Shown here one piece after another: positions 34,952 to 40,804 of a DNA stretch of 40,804 nucleotides; within the stretch, counting starts at the first letter, position 1; each line of letters starts with the position of its first letter. The stretch spans positions 1 to 40,804 of the forward strand of contig DSAP01000166.1 in the NCBI GenBank assembly GCA_011046415.1, given 5' to 3'. The position numbers and the translations under genes are program-made. The notes below the pieces were generated by a model. That model was given only the letters and a program-made list of their open reading frames with translations, ran no database searches and was not told the origin of the DNA. The stretch comes from a bacterium (GTDB taxonomy: Bacteria; Zhuqueibacterota; QNDG01; JABMRT01).

Positions 34952-35827
34952 TTACAGGCTGAATACCGCGGTAAGACTGTGGGCATCTCCCAGGCCGGAA
35001 CGGAAAGGTATGAACCCGTAAGAAATCCGGATTTTTTCCAGATCGAAACCGATGCCCGCCGTCAGGCCGCGCGTCTCATGCCCGGATTGATATCCGGCAC
35101 GCAGGGCGATCCGGCCGAACCCGACCCACTCCAGTCCGGTATGGACACCGGGGTCGCCCCCCCGGATCCGAACGCACTCCACCGCCGCCTCCCACCGTCC
35201 TCCCGGACCGGCGGTCCGGTATCCCGCTCCAACACGGATCGTCAGGGGCAGCTGAACGGCGTCCTGACGGAGCTTCCCCGTCTTCCCGATATGCTGGACC
35301 GCGGCGCCGATGCGAAGACCGGAGAGGCCGGGAGACCAGACCATCCCCAGATCGCCTCCGATCCCGGTGGCCTCGTCGATATAAATTTTTTCGTAATAAC
35401 CGTTCAGCCGGACGCCGAAGGAGAATGCCGGGGACACCCGCCTGGCGTAAGCGATCCCGAACACCGCATCATTCGCCGAGAACGTGCCGACCGGCTGTTC
35501 GGAAGGCACGATGCGGTGTTCGATGCCGCCGACATGGGAATAGTGAAGCGACAGCCCGAATCCGGAACGCGAAAAAGCGAATGCGCCGGCCTGCACCTCC
35601 TGTATCCAGCGGTTGACGGTCAGGGCCGCTTCCGGAGAAGGCGACACCGCCAGCAAGGCGGGATTCCAGTACATCGCGGAAGCGCCCGTGGAGGACGCCG
35701 CGCCGGTGAATCCCATGGCCGCGCCCCGGGCGTCAAGCCCGGCCTGAAGCAGGGTAAACCCGGCGGCACACAGGGAAGGGAGGGCCAGAACGAACAGCGG
35801 CGGCAGAATTTTTCGAAAACGATTCAT
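34952..35827 (-). CDS. PorV/PorQ-like outer-membrane barrel protein
   Basis: AAGAAGG before ATG 35827 gives 291 residues; the track start at 35938 runs into the upstream gene. A signal peptide (ILPPLFVLALPSLCAAG) is followed by the family opening LLQAGLDARGAAMGFTGAASSTGASAMYWNPALLA, the typical GAR..GMG.A......A.A...NPAGL motif of the PorV/PorQ/FadL-type family. The rest alternates in strands of a beta-barrel (FGVRLNGYYEKI, GLEWVGFGRIALRAGYQSG) and ends in ...LTAVFSL. In Bacteroidota PorV and PorQ shuttle T9SS cargo at the surface. It lies 14 nt after another barrel of the same family. Confidence 0.75.
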   Translation of the reverse strand: MNRFRKILPPLFVLALPSLCAAGFTLLQAGLDARGAAMGFTGAASSTGASAMYWNPALLAVSPSPEAALTVNRWIQEVQAGAFAFSRSGFGLSLHYSHVGGIEHRIVPSEQPVGTFSANDAVFGIAYARRVSPAFSFGVRLNGYYEKIYIDEATGIGGDLGMVWSPGLSGLRIGAAVQHIGKTGKLRQDAVQLPLTIRVGAGYRTAGPGGRWEAAVECVRIRGGDPGVHTGLEWVGFGRIALRAGYQSGHETRGLTAGIGFDLEKIRISYGFIPFRSGLGDAHSLTAVFSL

Positions 35828-35841
35828 CGAAACCTTCTTTG

Positions 35842-36831
35842 TTAAAAACGAAAAGACCAGGAAAAGACATGGTTGCCGCGCGGCGCGACCGGATCCGATA
35901 CGTAGGCATAGTCGATCTGCAACCGCCTGCCGTGCCACTCCCGCCCGTAACCGGCGCCGGCCGAGAGGTTTTCTTCATGCATTCCACCACGCAAAAAAAC
36001 TCCGGGAAGGCATTCCCATTCACAGCCGCCGCGGAAAACCGCAGGCCGGGATTCGGTCTGCCGGACATTCAGGTTCAGGATGAGTCCCGTAACGGGATTC
36101 CAGGCCAGACCCAGTGTCCATGTCCGGGGAAACGGATCGACCCGCTTGGGGGCCTGCTCGTACATTTTCTGTGAATCCCAGGTGTTTTTGGAACGCAGAT
36201 CCTGAAGGACGGCGCCGATGGAAACGGAAGGAAAGGGACGGATCATCAGCCCCGCATCGAAACCGACACCGGTCGAGGCCATCGCACCGCCGTCATCCAG
36301 GAGGCCGGGCATACGGCTGTAGAGCACCCGGGTGCTGAATCCGATTCCCAGAATCGGGGCGGGACGGATCGCAAAGGAAAAATGGAAGGCATGTTCATCC
36401 ATTGACAGCATGCCCGTATGCGCGCCATCGAAATCGCGGCCGTCGATCCGATCCACGCCCGCGGAGAGCCAGCCGAGGGCGAAACCCGCACTGAACGGCG
36501 GTCGTGCCGTACCGGTTTCCGATGTGACGGCGCGCCCCCCCAGCGATTGCGCATACCCGATGTGATGGAGTTTGCGGTCGAGCGCCATCGAAGAAAGGCT
36601 GATGGTCGCGTGCCGCCCGTCCAGGAAAACGGACCCGGCCGGATTGTACGTGACCGCGTCGGCATCGCCCGTGAGCGCGGCGCCCCCCCCGCCCATGCCC
36701 TGATAGCGCGCCCCGACACCCACGCGGAGGAAAGCGCCTGCGGCGCCGCCGCGTCCGACCTCATCGGCATGGACGGACAGGGAAAGACACAACAGGACGG
36801 AAAGAACCCCGATTTTTTTCACATCTTTCAT
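35842..36831 (-). CDS. PorV/PorQ-like outer-membrane barrel protein
   Basis: The 329-residue protein has a signal peptide (LSVLLCLSLSVHAD) and opens with GGAAGAFLRVGVGARYQGMGGGGAALTGDADAVTYNPAG, which strongly resembles the PorV/PorQ family start. Further barrel strands follow (ISLSSMALDRKLHHIGYAQS, GIGFSTRVLYSRM, GFDAGLMIRPFPSVSIGAVLQDL) and a C-terminal strand ending SWSFRF with the aromatic terminal residue. It is the third gene of the surface operon, 135 nt after the propeller gene. A role in receiving the sorting-tailed propeller protein is inferred. Confidence 0.78.
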   Translation of the reverse strand: MKDVKKIGVLSVLLCLSLSVHADEVGRGGAAGAFLRVGVGARYQGMGGGGAALTGDADAVTYNPAGSVFLDGRHATISLSSMALDRKLHHIGYAQSLGGRAVTSETGTARPPFSAGFALGWLSAGVDRIDGRDFDGAHTGMLSMDEHAFHFSFAIRPAPILGIGFSTRVLYSRMPGLLDDGGAMASTGVGFDAGLMIRPFPSVSIGAVLQDLRSKNTWDSQKMYEQAPKRVDPFPRTWTLGLAWNPVTGLILNLNVRQTESRPAVFRGGCEWECLPGVFLRGGMHEENLSAGAGYGREWHGRRLQIDYAYVSDPVAPRGNHVFSWSFRF

Positions 36832-36966
36832 CGGACCAACACCATCCCTCGTAAGAGCATACCCGTCACCAACCGTCTCCTGCTTTTTTCGATTTCCGCC
36901 ATCCGTGTCTGCGGGTCAGCCGCCCGTCTTGCTCAGGACCGGACGGTATCCTGAGGCGAAATCCGT

Positions 36967-38427
36967 TCAATTCACAACCATGACTTTACCCCATAGCGGA
37001 GGGCGTCCGGGGATGTCGATCCGGTAAAAATAGACCCCGTTGGCCACCATGTCTCCGAGATCGTTTCTCCCGTTCCAAGCCTCGGCATGATCACCGGGAG
37101 GACGGAACGCCTGTTCGATCAGGCTGCGAACCCGTTTCATCCCGAAATCATAGATGCGCACGGTCACGGCCGCGTCCCGGACAAGCCGGTACTGGAACCG
37201 CACGTGGCCGTCATCTCCCGCGCGGTTGTGCCGCAGCGGAGAGAATGGGTTGGGAAAGGCATAGGTTGCCGGAGTCCCGTCTTCGCCCGGGGACATGTAG
37301 GCCTGAAATATGCGCCATTCAAATCCGTCCGGAGAATAGGCCAGCCCGTCGGATGTGCCGACCCAGAGTCCGGATTCGCCGTCCGCCGCCGCCGTATGAA
37401 CGCCCGTGGCGTAAAGACGCCTGCCGGTCGCAGCGGCCCGGTATTCGGGGAACACGGCCCATGTCGCGCCTGCGTCGATGGATTTATAGAGTCCCTCATC
37501 CGTGGCCGCGTACACGATGGAATCGTCGACGGCAAAATTATGCGCGAAGACGCCCGGGAGCACGACCCGCCAGGTGAGCCCGCCGTCTTCGGTCACCGAC
37601 ACGGCGCGGTACTCGCTCTCCCCGAGCGCGTTGACCGTCGCGGCCCACAGGAGGTCTCGCGATGCGGTTTTTTGGGATTTCAGCGCCACCACGAAATTTC
37701 CGGAGATGCCGTGCGGCTGATTCTGATGGGTGAAGGTGGTCCAGTTCTCCCCTTCGTCCGTGGATTTGTGAATGCCCCCGGCCGTGCCGACCCAGACCGT
37801 CTGACCGTCATAATGAACGGAAAAAGCCCGGTGGCTCAGATGATCCAGCGCCGCGAACGGCAGGCCGTCCACCGTGACCACCTCCCAGGCGGCATCCGGA
37901 TCCTCGACGGCGGATCGTCTCAGTCCGCCTCCGAAACTGGCGATCCAGACATGATCCCGCGAGATGGCGATATCATAGGTCAGGTTCTGGACATGGGTGG
38001 TCGTGGGTTTGTACCGCGTCTCATCCCGGCTGTCCCTGGGCTGCGGCATCCAGCGCCAGGTCTGTCCGCGATCCGTGGATACGGACAGCCCGCCCCCCGC
38101 GGGGAGATTTCCTGCATCCCGAATGAGCGTGTCAAACGCGGTCGCCACCCAGATCAGCGCGCCGCGCTTGGCGACCGCGCTCACCCCGCCCTTGCCGAAT
38201 CCGTCCTCGCGGGAGTAATGAAGCCATGTGTCTCCCTTGTCCGCGGTATAGGAGAGTCCGCTGCCGGATCCGACCCAGACCGTGTCTCCGGAGACGAAAA
38301 GATCATTGATGCCGTTGCTGTTGAGCCGGGCGGAGATTTCGGAAAGGACCGCGTGGGTCCGGGCGTGAAGAGCCGCCGGCCCCCGGATTATTAATAGAAA
38401 GGCGATAAAGAGAATGCTCCGTTTCAC
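36967..38427 (-). CDS. exported propeller (BNR/sialidase-like) protein with T9SS-like C-terminal domain
   Basis: Starts at GTG 38427, with GGAG of its ribosome site inside the end of the upstream gene. The 486-residue protein has a signal peptide (ILFIAFLLIIRGPAALHA). Residues ~30-385 form a propeller with Asp-box style repeats (TADKGDTWLHY, STDRGQTWRWM, STDEGENWTTF, TEDGGLTWRVV, SIDAGATWAVF) and WVGT blades. The last ~90 residues are a FlgD/T9SS-type sorting-like domain: YAFPNPFSP, the amphipathic AAVTVRIYDFGMKRVRSL, AWNGRNDLGDMVANGVYFYRI and KVMVVN. It lies 4 nt after the lipoprotein gene and just ahead of two PorV/PorQ-like genes, suggesting a surface-exposed product. Confidence 0.82.
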   Translation of the reverse strand: MKRSILFIAFLLIIRGPAALHARTHAVLSEISARLNSNGINDLFVSGDTVWVGSGSGLSYTADKGDTWLHYSREDGFGKGGVSAVAKRGALIWVATAFDTLIRDAGNLPAGGGLSVSTDRGQTWRWMPQPRDSRDETRYKPTTTHVQNLTYDIAISRDHVWIASFGGGLRRSAVEDPDAAWEVVTVDGLPFAALDHLSHRAFSVHYDGQTVWVGTAGGIHKSTDEGENWTTFTHQNQPHGISGNFVVALKSQKTASRDLLWAATVNALGESEYRAVSVTEDGGLTWRVVLPGVFAHNFAVDDSIVYAATDEGLYKSIDAGATWAVFPEYRAAATGRRLYATGVHTAAADGESGLWVGTSDGLAYSPDGFEWRIFQAYMSPGEDGTPATYAFPNPFSPLRHNRAGDDGHVRFQYRLVRDAAVTVRIYDFGMKRVRSLIEQAFRPPGDHAEAWNGRNDLGDMVANGVYFYRIDIPGRPPLWGKVMVVN

Positions 38428-38431
38428 CGGT

Positions 38432-39586
38432 TTACTCCGTCACTTCCATTTCATGGCGGATCACCTCGCTCGTCAGGCTTCCGCGGTCCTCGGCGTAAAA
38501 ATCGAAACGATAAATTCCGAGCGCATTTTGCGGACCGATCCCGATCATCAGGGAATAGATGCCGTCTCCGGCTTCCGCATCACCCTGGGTTCCGTCGTCG
38601 GTCATGAGGAACGGATTGCCCTGTGACGCGGATCCGTCCGGCCTGAATGTGTTGAAATAGACCCGCAGGATGTCGTCGGGCCCCTGGGGATCGATTGCCT
38701 CGACCGTGAGCAGGATCGGTTCTCCGGCGTTCCGGGAGATCCGGTCCGGCGCTTGCAGTTTGGAAAGCACGGGCGGATCGTTCCGCCGGATCACCGCCGT
38801 CACGCCGACGAAAGGACGGCTTTCGAGTCCGCGGCGGTCCCTGGCCTGGAACCGGAACGTATAGTCTCCGGAACTCAGGAAAACGGGACGCAAATCCCGG
38901 CGGACGGCGAACCGGCCGTCTCCGGCCGTGGAATCTCCGTCTTCACCCTGGTCGTTCAATTGCAGCCGGCAGGATGGTGCGGGAGAATACGGCGGATAGA
39001 CATCACACCAGACCGAATCCACTTCCCCGGGATCCTGGGGGTCGAACACGGTGATTTCAAAATACGCGTTTTCCAGTTCTTCCAGGTCCGGAAGCACCGG
39101 GAAAACAGGATGAGACAGCCGGGGAGGATCATTCGGCGCGCCCGCCGCCACGACGGTGGAATCCGCGGCGGGATCGCTCTCATGTCCCGACCTGTCGACG
39201 GCGATGACACGGATCGCGAAGCGTCCCGTCCGTCCCGAAAAGACGGCGGGGAAAAGCAGGCCGTAAAACAGGCCGTCTCCGGCGATGATGTCTCCGTTCT
39301 TTCCGTCGTCCGCCATTTCCGCTTCATGACGGACCTGTCCTGATGCGTCGAGGACGGAAAACCGGACGGCGGCGATATCCGAGAGTCCCTGCGGATCTTG
39401 GACCCTCACCCGGACGGCTGAAGGCGATGGCGATCCGATCCGGATCGTATCCGGCACGGAAAGCCCGGAGAGATAGGGATGCACCGCATCCTCGGATACG
39501 GGATTTTGGACCTCACAGCCCGAAAAAACCAGCACGACAATAAAAGAAACAGCTGCAAGTAAAATAAGATATGATTTATGCATCAT
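38432..39586 (-). CDS. lipoprotein with three tandem ~118-residue repeats
   Basis: The track ORF starts at 39703, but that lies in the leader; ATG 39586 (or 39583, the next codon) gives 384 residues. A lipoprotein signal with FSGC is visible. The mature protein holds three tandem repeats in which xxDGxxGDxxAGDG recurs near residues 93, 212 and 330 (DDGKNGDIIAGDG, DQGEDGDSTAGDG, DDGTQGDAEAGDG). Each is preceded by a DPQ strand and ended by a DR-G-ES strand. The acidic loop resembles a calcium-binding turn, and the repeats look Ig-like. No named family is recognised. It leads the operon with the propeller and PorV/PorQ-like genes, so it may be a surface or periplasmic anchor. Confidence 0.78.
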   Translation of the reverse strand: MMHKSYLILLAAVSFIVVLVFSGCEVQNPVSEDAVHPYLSGLSVPDTIRIGSPSPSAVRVRVQDPQGLSDIAAVRFSVLDASGQVRHEAEMADDGKNGDIIAGDGLFYGLLFPAVFSGRTGRFAIRVIAVDRSGHESDPAADSTVVAAGAPNDPPRLSHPVFPVLPDLEELENAYFEITVFDPQDPGEVDSVWCDVYPPYSPAPSCRLQLNDQGEDGDSTAGDGRFAVRRDLRPVFLSSGDYTFRFQARDRRGLESRPFVGVTAVIRRNDPPVLSKLQAPDRISRNAGEPILLTVEAIDPQGPDDILRVYFNTFRPDGSASQGNPFLMTDDGTQGDAEAGDGIYSLMIGIGPQNALGIYRFDFYAEDRGSLTSEVIRHEMEVTE

Positions 39587-39597
39587 GGGTTGAATCC

Positions 39598-39663
39598 AAA
39601 AAAAAATCCGAACACCGCAAGGGAAAAGACACCTCTTGCCGAAAGGCATTCCTCGGTTCGGAT
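39598..39663 (-). terminator. structured leader ending in an intrinsic terminator
   Basis: On the minus strand ATCCGAAC (39663-39656) pairs with GTTCGGAT (39613-39606), followed by a T9 run and, 11 nt later, the ATG. Between the arms lie two small hairpins that share bases and could exclude each other (TGCCTTTCGGCA and GCAAG...CTTGC). A clear promoter sits about 100 nt upstream. This is the layout of a transcription attenuator or riboswitch-type leader, although no known class is recognised. It could instead be the terminator of the pdxJ-like gene. Confidence 0.6.
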
Positions 39664-39761
39664 CATCTCGGGCCTCTAACAACATCCGTTTACTGGACAT
39701 CACAAAACTTCACATTCTCAAGATGCGCTCAGAGGCCTCCGTTTCGAATCAAAATCAATCC

Positions 39762-39798: not shown

Positions 39799-40512
39799 TC
39801 AATGCACGAGTGCGGCCAGATCCCGTACCGCCGCTTCCATGCCGATCCAGAGCGCCCGGCCGAACACGGTGCGTCCCGCGCAGACCTCGCCGATCCTTAC
39901 GTTGGACAGGATGGAAGGGATGTTCTGATATGTCACTCCGTTGATCACCGAAGCGGAAAGACCCATCTTTTCCGCGGCCAGAGAAACGCCGGACAGGTTC
40001 TCGAGCAGGTCGTCCCTGTCGGCGGCTTTTTTAAGGGATTCGAGCCGGCCCAGATGAAGCATCACGCCGTCCGCGCCGAGCCGGGCGGCGGCCTTGATCT
40101 GCGGGATCATGGGCTCCACCAGGAGGCTGACCCTAATCTCCTGCGCCCTGAAATCCCGGACGAGTTTTTCGATCGGCCCGGCCTGGCCCAGGGCGTCGAG
40201 GCCGCCGCCCGGCGTGGCGCCCGGCTTCTTGGCGGGAACGAGAACAACCTGGTTCGGAGAATATCCCATCGCTTTGGAGGCCAGGCTGTCCAGGGCGGGC
40301 ACGAAGAGGACAAAGTCCGTCCGGATCATCTCCCGGACGATCCGGATGTCCCGGTCCGAAAACGGACCGGCCTCGTCCGGGAGCGTGCAGGCGATGCCGT
40401 CGGCCCCGCCGATTTCCGCGAGGAGCGCCGCCCTCACGGGATCGACCTCCCTCGCCTTCGCCGCCTCGCGGAACTCGGCGACGGGTCCCAGATGGATGAC
40501 CAGTCGGGCCAT
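39799..40512 (-). CDS. PdxJ-like TIM-barrel protein, probably catalytically inactive
   Basis: GGAGGTG before ATG 40512 gives 237 residues, the usual PdxJ length. The overall fold aligns well: DPVRAALLAEIGGADGI, SDRDIRIVREMI, NQVVLVPAKKPGATPGGGLDALGQ, IRVSLLVEPMIPQIKAAARLGADGVMLHLG and GLSASVINGVTYQNIPSI. PdxJ makes pyridoxine 5'-phosphate, but residues that carry its chemistry are replaced. The NIDH segment reads IHLGP, the VHLREDRRH loop reads CTLPDEAGP, the NLEMA glutamate is lost (DFVLFV), and NAGHG.NY reads VINGVTY. I therefore regard it as a PdxJ-fold paralogue with another role or substrate. It lies alone upstream of the lipoprotein operon. Confidence 0.78.
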   Translation of the reverse strand: MARLVIHLGPVAEFREAAKAREVDPVRAALLAEIGGADGIACTLPDEAGPFSDRDIRIVREMIRTDFVLFVPALDSLASKAMGYSPNQVVLVPAKKPGATPGGGLDALGQAGPIEKLVRDFRAQEIRVSLLVEPMIPQIKAAARLGADGVMLHLGRLESLKKAADRDDLLENLSGVSLAAEKMGLSASVINGVTYQNIPSILSNVRIGEVCAGRTVFGRALWIGMEAAVRDLAALVH

Positions 40513-40553
40513 GATTCACCTCCAAGGGTTGGATGCTGTCGTTCTTCTGTCGA

Positions 40554-40569: not shown

Positions 40570-40703
40570 CATTGTTTAGTCAAGGAATCCGTGGTTCGGG
40601 AAAACATGCACAGGATTGAACATTCCCGGCACAATATCACGCCGTAAAAAAAATGGAAACAATCAAATCCGGCATGGTTAAGTATTTGCGAAAAAGGGAC
40701 TGA

Positions 40704-40804
40704 TCATGAGGCCTCAATCTCCTTCAGGGTTTTGCCTTCTTGGTTCTTCCATGCGATAAGGCCATTTGCATGACCGCCATGGACTACAGATGCAGCCGCA
40801 CTGG
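40704..40804 (-). CDS. C-terminal end of a DUF4357-containing protein (partial)
   Basis: Cut by the right edge and too short for the ORF track. The minus strand reads SAAASVVHGGHANGLIAWKN then QEGKTLKEIEAS and stops at a TGA (40704-40706). The SAAxxVxxG.xANG...W....GKTL pattern matches the DUF4357 domain, which usually ends GIY-YIG nuclease-family or related proteins. The rest of the gene lies outside the window, so the full function is not known. Confidence 0.65.
   Translation of the reverse strand, partial: SAAASVVHGGHANGLIAWKNQEGKTLKEIEAS

Follow-up and report, generated by a model that had tools for sequence, protein, structure and literature searches.

The stretch of DNA analysed here (the window, 40,804 nucleotides) carries near one end a reverse-strand open reading frame of the PdxJ type, which starts with ATG, encodes 237 residues and has a coding-like GC composition by codon position (0.70/0.45/0.82). 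The contig ends 292 bases upstream of this gene. The features of the locus are collected in Table 1.

Table 1. Features of the divergent pdxJ locus, in window coordinates.
Feature	Coordinates	Strand	Basis
PdxJ-fold protein lacking the PNP synthase active site, 237 aa	39799..40512	-	ORF list, Pfam, alignment, model
Shine-Dalgarno GGAGGTG ahead of the ATG	40517..40523	-	direct reading
Codons 7-10 (H-L-G-P), counterpart of the E. coli PdxJ N-I-D-H motif	40483..40494	-	alignment
Codons 43-50 (TLPDEAGP), counterpart of H45-LREDRR-H52	40363..40386	-	alignment
Codon 70 (F), counterpart of catalytic E72	40303..40305	-	alignment
Codons 97-101, within the mobile active-site loop	40210..40224	-	AlphaFold2 pLDDT and PMC10471632
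Codons 191-192 (N-G), counterpart of catalytic H193 and phosphate-cradle G194, glycine retained	39937..39942	-	alignment
Codons 213-214 (G-R), counterpart of phosphate-cradle G215-H216, glycine retained	39871..39876	-	alignment
End of the C-terminal helix with stop; AVRD(M/L)xALVH almost unchanged across the 11 sequences of the window's order	39799..39838	-	alignment
End of a DUF4357 ORF, stop at 40704-40706	40682..40804	-	123 bases identical to the end of contig C191 (L161) of the same genome
Downstream genes c3, c6, c5, c5	34952..39703	-	order recurs 3' of divergent pdxJ in many genomes of KSB1

Membership of the PdxJ superfamily was established by both a full-length profile match and a PdxJ-type barrel. 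The Pfam family PF03740 matched residues 4-235 (232 residues) with 143.9 bits (E=6e-42; cut-off 24.5), and the PdxJ crystal structures were matched by sequence with an E value of about 1e-30. All NCBIfam pdxJ equivalog models also matched the protein, but each below its own cut-off, with 121.4 bits against 192.75 for TIGR00559 and 149.1 against 190 for PRK05265. Automatic mislabelling as pdxJ, anticipated in the original prediction, is likely at the Pfam level, but the NCBIfam cut-offs would withhold the name.

The AlphaFold2 monomer model was of high confidence (pLDDT 92.2, pTM 0.90), the only segment with pLDDT below 50 being residues 97-101, inside the mobile active-site loop that spans residues 95-105 in E. 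coli PdxJ (PMC10471632). The best 16 PDB matches to the model were all PdxJ proteins. Compared with known PdxJ (PF03740, TIGR00559; PDB 1HO1, 1M5W, 5DLC, 6RG0), the protein has the same length and TIM-barrel, with a TM score of up to 0.94 at about 30% identity, in agreement with the PdxJ length and fold first proposed from the sequence. The barrel scaffold is indeed kept; however, the segment VLVPAKKPGATPGGGLD, which had been put forward as kept scaffold, is not inert: it includes the mobile active-site loop, itself altered.

The alignment between the window protein and E. coli PdxJ contained no internal gaps, and this ruled out a simple misplacement of the catalytic residues. The catalytic trio H45, E72 and H193 is replaced by T43, F70 and N191, so that the equivalence that would have overturned the original prediction is absent. 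Among 17 active-site positions of the PdxJ structures, 14 are replaced: besides the trio, N9, D11, H12, R20 and R47 are changed to H7, G9, P10, A18 and P45, R50, H52, T103 and E104 to A48, P50, P101 and G102, and E153 and H216 to M151 and R214. The substitution of the NIDH segment, the VHLREDRRH loop, the NLEMA glutamate and the NAGHG histidine, noticed at first reading, was therefore borne out. The only survivors are T102, G194 and G215, also the only ones retained among the contacts to DXP and phosphate (R20, H52, T102-E104, G194, G215 and H216). Positions invariant in canonical PdxJ were retained at 3/17 sites in the active site versus 36/70 elsewhere (Fisher p 0.015), and the bias toward active-site loss ran in the same direction in all 38 divergent relatives. 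All of these relatives lack E72, H193, H52 and T103, and 33 of them also lack H45, while the five residues H45, E72, H193, H52 and T103 are present in 30/30 canonical relatives. The phosphate-cradle glycines are largely kept in the divergent sequences (G194 in 30/38, G215 in 38/38). With its equivalog scores below the cut-offs and its catalytic residues replaced, the window protein is almost certainly not a PNP synthase, a function excluded as far as sequence can exclude it.

The vitamin B6 pathway was then reconstructed in the genome to which the window belongs (3.1 Mb, 92% complete). Searches of this draft returned no second PdxJ, as was to be checked for the original prediction, and no PdxA match, leaving the DXP pathway without its partner enzyme. 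A complete pdxS-pdxT pair is present with the two genes adjacent; the divergent pdxJ is not linked to it (contig C14 against C3). PdxS (SOR/SNZ), a PLP synthase subunit, is likewise a barrel protein of PLP synthesis, but it belongs to a separate family and has its own intact gene beside pdxT, and so it is not the product of the window gene. With PdxS and PdxT present and both PdxA and a second PdxJ absent, PLP is made by the ribose-5-phosphate route, which leaves a PNP synthase without an evident place. This makes it hardly credible that the protein still synthesizes PNP through other residues: the fold and family are unchanged and PdxA occurs in some carriers of divergent PdxJ, but H45, E72 and H193 are all gone in a gap-free alignment and the organism's own genome has no PdxA and relies on PdxS/PdxT. 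The gene thus differs from known pdxJ in being accompanied by PdxS/PdxT rather than by the DXP pathway, a tie on which the original prediction was silent.

The same association was observed throughout the phylum, for which we use the name KSB1, also found in a paper on the phylum Zhuqueibacterota (PMC11683472). Among 75 KSB1 genomes at least 75% complete, nearly all of them drafts, 36 had a divergent PdxJ, 34 had a canonical PdxJ and the remaining 5 had no PdxJ. PdxS occurred in 35/36 carriers of divergent PdxJ versus 0/34 carriers of canonical PdxJ (Fisher p 6e-19, with related genomes that are not independent); the single divergent carrier lacking PdxS, G041, is a draft. This tight co-occurrence, together with the retained cradle glycines G194 and G215, would suit a protein that senses or regulates the new PLP route by binding a phosphorylated B6 vitamer or precursor, leaving it unconverted, and acting on PdxS/PdxT or on PLP enzymes. 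We consider this improbable, as the pdxST genes are unlinked in the window's genome and the residues contacting DXP and the second phosphate are gone.

PdxA was patchily distributed across the divergent carriers and is retained in many PdxS-bearing KSB1 genomes that lack a canonical PdxJ, where it perhaps has a PdxA2-like use; part of the old pathway can therefore linger for other purposes. The complete KSB1 genome G027 has PdxS and two PdxA matches but no PdxJ hit, indicating that the divergent gene can be lost and that its role is not universal. In some KSB1 genomes of the canonical type there is a further PdxJ-like gene (L069:7465-8187, L070:7408-8139, L071:1877-2605, L072:7440-8165), which retains most of the active site (N9, R20, H45, H52, E72 and H193) and has its own motifs (NNK, RHRPD[QE]RH and DHGW) and different neighbours; it is possibly a second functional type. 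Among named canonical PdxJs, the one from candidate division KSB1 bacterium KSB J3 (L085) was closest to most divergent KSB1 sequences, and the PdxJ of G048 is 100% identical to it. A scan of named genomes with one short pattern returned almost only canonical PdxJs and no named divergent member.

The phylogenetic analysis placed the 38 divergent sequences in one clade (support 90/88) beside canonical KSB1 PdxJ. The clade comprises the window's order (11 sequences, 100/100), clade A (22 sequences, 100/100), family f9 (3) and family f11 (2); the tree has long branches, that of the window's subgroup included. Loss of E72, H193 and H52 is thus common to the whole clade, and both the tree and the gene position support the derivation from PdxJ originally suggested. 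Close pairs of divergent sequences gave dN/dS values of 0.03-0.18, with 0.13-0.15 inside the window's order, indicating that the protein is under selection, and the pdxJ reading frames of the divergent genomes are full-length and free of stops. Pseudogenization was ruled out by the dN/dS values and the intact reading frames. Clade-wide catalytic loss, intact reading frames and purifying selection thus occur together, as in a retained dead orthologue. For the same reasons, and since residues specific to the clade have become newly conserved, it is very improbable that the gene is a decaying relic or a frame retained only for translational coupling in an operon, although the active site is lost, the branches of the window's subgroup are long and G027 has lost the gene.

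The gene neighbourhood was compared between divergent and canonical loci. Upstream of divergent pdxJ there is usually c2, a lipoprotein-like protein of about 210 aa with no Pfam match, and then c1, a transmembrane protein with the divergent polysaccharide deacetylase domain PF04748. Canonical KSB1 pdxJ, which has the full active site and occurs in genomes devoid of PdxS, is preceded by the same c2-c1 pair, and the divergent gene is therefore its positional orthologue. A spare paralogue beside a real pdxJ, a distinction that the original prediction did not draw, was ruled out by the search of the organism's own genome and by the gene's place at the ancestral locus. Contig C191 (L161) of the same genome bears c2, c1 and a DUF4357 ORF, and from its exact 123-base overlap with the window the order of the locus is most likely c2 - c1 - DUF4357 - divergent pdxJ - c3 - c6 - c5. 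The DUF4357 ORF lies here between the PF04748 gene and pdxJ, whereas c1 and pdxJ are mostly adjacent in relatives, with no such ORF between them.

On the 3' side of divergent pdxJ the next gene encodes an HD protein, a beta-eliminating lyase or a HAD protein, or else the c3-c6-c5 block starts at once. Protein c3 is Ig-like with a lipoprotein-like start, c6 is a BNR/two-component propeller whose representative L062 terminates in a FlgD_ig/CHU_C type IX-like domain, and the two c5 proteins are PorV/TraF-like outer membrane proteins; the block has the appearance of a conserved surface system. In many genomes of clade A and f9, the gene directly 3' of divergent pdxJ encodes an HD-domain hydrolase of about 190 aa (e.g. 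L057:6776-7339), which was not found beside canonical KSB1 pdxJ, and many clade A genomes have a DUF4921 (HIT/GalT-like) gene upstream of c2-c1-pdxJ (L048:4253-5659 and relatives). Only the HD gene (and DUF4921) distinguishes divergent loci from canonical ones; no copy of either was seen beside the pdxJ of the window, where the contig end is reached upstream. Since the c2 - PF04748 arrangement goes back to canonical pdxJ, the neighbourhood alone is little informative and does not point to a new function.

The pattern of conservation within the pocket differed between the two main groups of the clade. In the sister clade A the ancestral residues are swapped for an equally conserved set (E. coli numbering: C9 and N11, each in 22/22, with Q12, D52, A72, P74, Q153, N155 and R193), which, together with the HD-domain hydrolase gene 3' in many clade A and f9 loci and absent beside canonical pdxJ, argues for a neofunctionalised enzyme, a barrel whose different active site would convert a small phosphorylated substrate. 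These positions are free to vary in the window's order, with P, T, S, R or A at 45, Q, F, L, K, I or R at 72 and many residues at 193, and the C/N/Q set is missing from the window protein. A new enzyme is on the whole a possible reading that we do not favour, most plausible for clade A, where it is as probable as a non-catalytic partner or binding role, and less so for the window's order. In the latter, conservation has newly arisen at the C-terminal helix (AVRDM.ALVH) and at a small number of further sites. Because the barrel mouth is variable while the two cradle glycines and above all this helix are conserved, a non-catalytic role is favoured there.

Our preferred reading, with a probability of roughly 0.5, is that the window gene is a vertically inherited KSB1 pdxJ repurposed in situ and kept for a second role, likeliest that of a non-catalytic partner. 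That the gene is a repurposed positional orthologue we regard as very probable; the assignment of a non-catalytic partner role to the window's order is more tentative, at slightly short of even odds. According to this reading of the in situ repurposed pdxJ, gain of PdxS/PdxT would have made PNP synthesis dispensable, and the protein, once freed from its enzymatic duty, would have been retained for the second role. In the window's order it might serve as an oligomeric scaffold or ligand-binding partner of the co-located envelope genes c2 and PF04748. Pseudoenzymes maintain an intact fold under purifying selection without the ancestral catalytic residues, and divergent PdxJ resembles them in all three respects.

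Altered PdxJs were also found outside KSB1 when the low-scoring full-length PdxJs of a wider sample were re-examined. Nine PdxS-bearing genomes (G133, G134, G135, G154, G183, G255, G289, G363 and G395) carry a PdxJ in which most active-site residues are gone, although E72 still aligns in G135 and G255 and H45 in G183; G170 and G265 have a divergent PdxJ and no PdxS hit. Several of the nine occupy loci of the pdxJ type, which read PF04748 - pdxJ - asparaginase II - HAD in G134 and G395, c2 - c1 - pdxJ in G363, PF04748 - pdxJ in G135, a duplicated c2 - pdxJ in G154 and G289, and glmM - pdxJ in G255. The tree requires at least 5 changes between live and dead forms and several of its rows have very long branches, for which reason a repeated origin of dead PdxJs is likely, short of proven. 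Such recurrence raises the option, rather unlikely in our estimate, that PdxJ has an old second function outside B6 synthesis, tied to a conserved operon with PF04748 (polysaccharide deacetylase) and lipoprotein-like genes or with glmM. This function would be the sole remnant whenever PdxS/PdxT are gained, so that dead PdxJs would recur, and one KSB1 copy, in clade A, would by now be a new enzyme with a conserved Cys-Asn pocket.

No description of a dead PdxJ family was found in the literature, in a search that fell short of most subscription journals. A genome-wide survey relied on pdxJ as its signature for the DXP-dependent route to B6 and listed ten genomes with both routes, including Caldithrix abyssi and Fibrobacter succinogenes, in which the DXP route is possibly incomplete (PMC9997740). 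Inferring the pathway from pdxJ would be wrong in about half of the KSB1 genomes sampled and in some other PdxS-bearing genomes, and dead PdxJs are a direct candidate reason for the incomplete-looking DXP routes of genomes with both pathways. That strong purifying selection still maintains the fold when the one activity known for it is no longer needed implies that PdxJ-type proteins have a function so far unrecognised.
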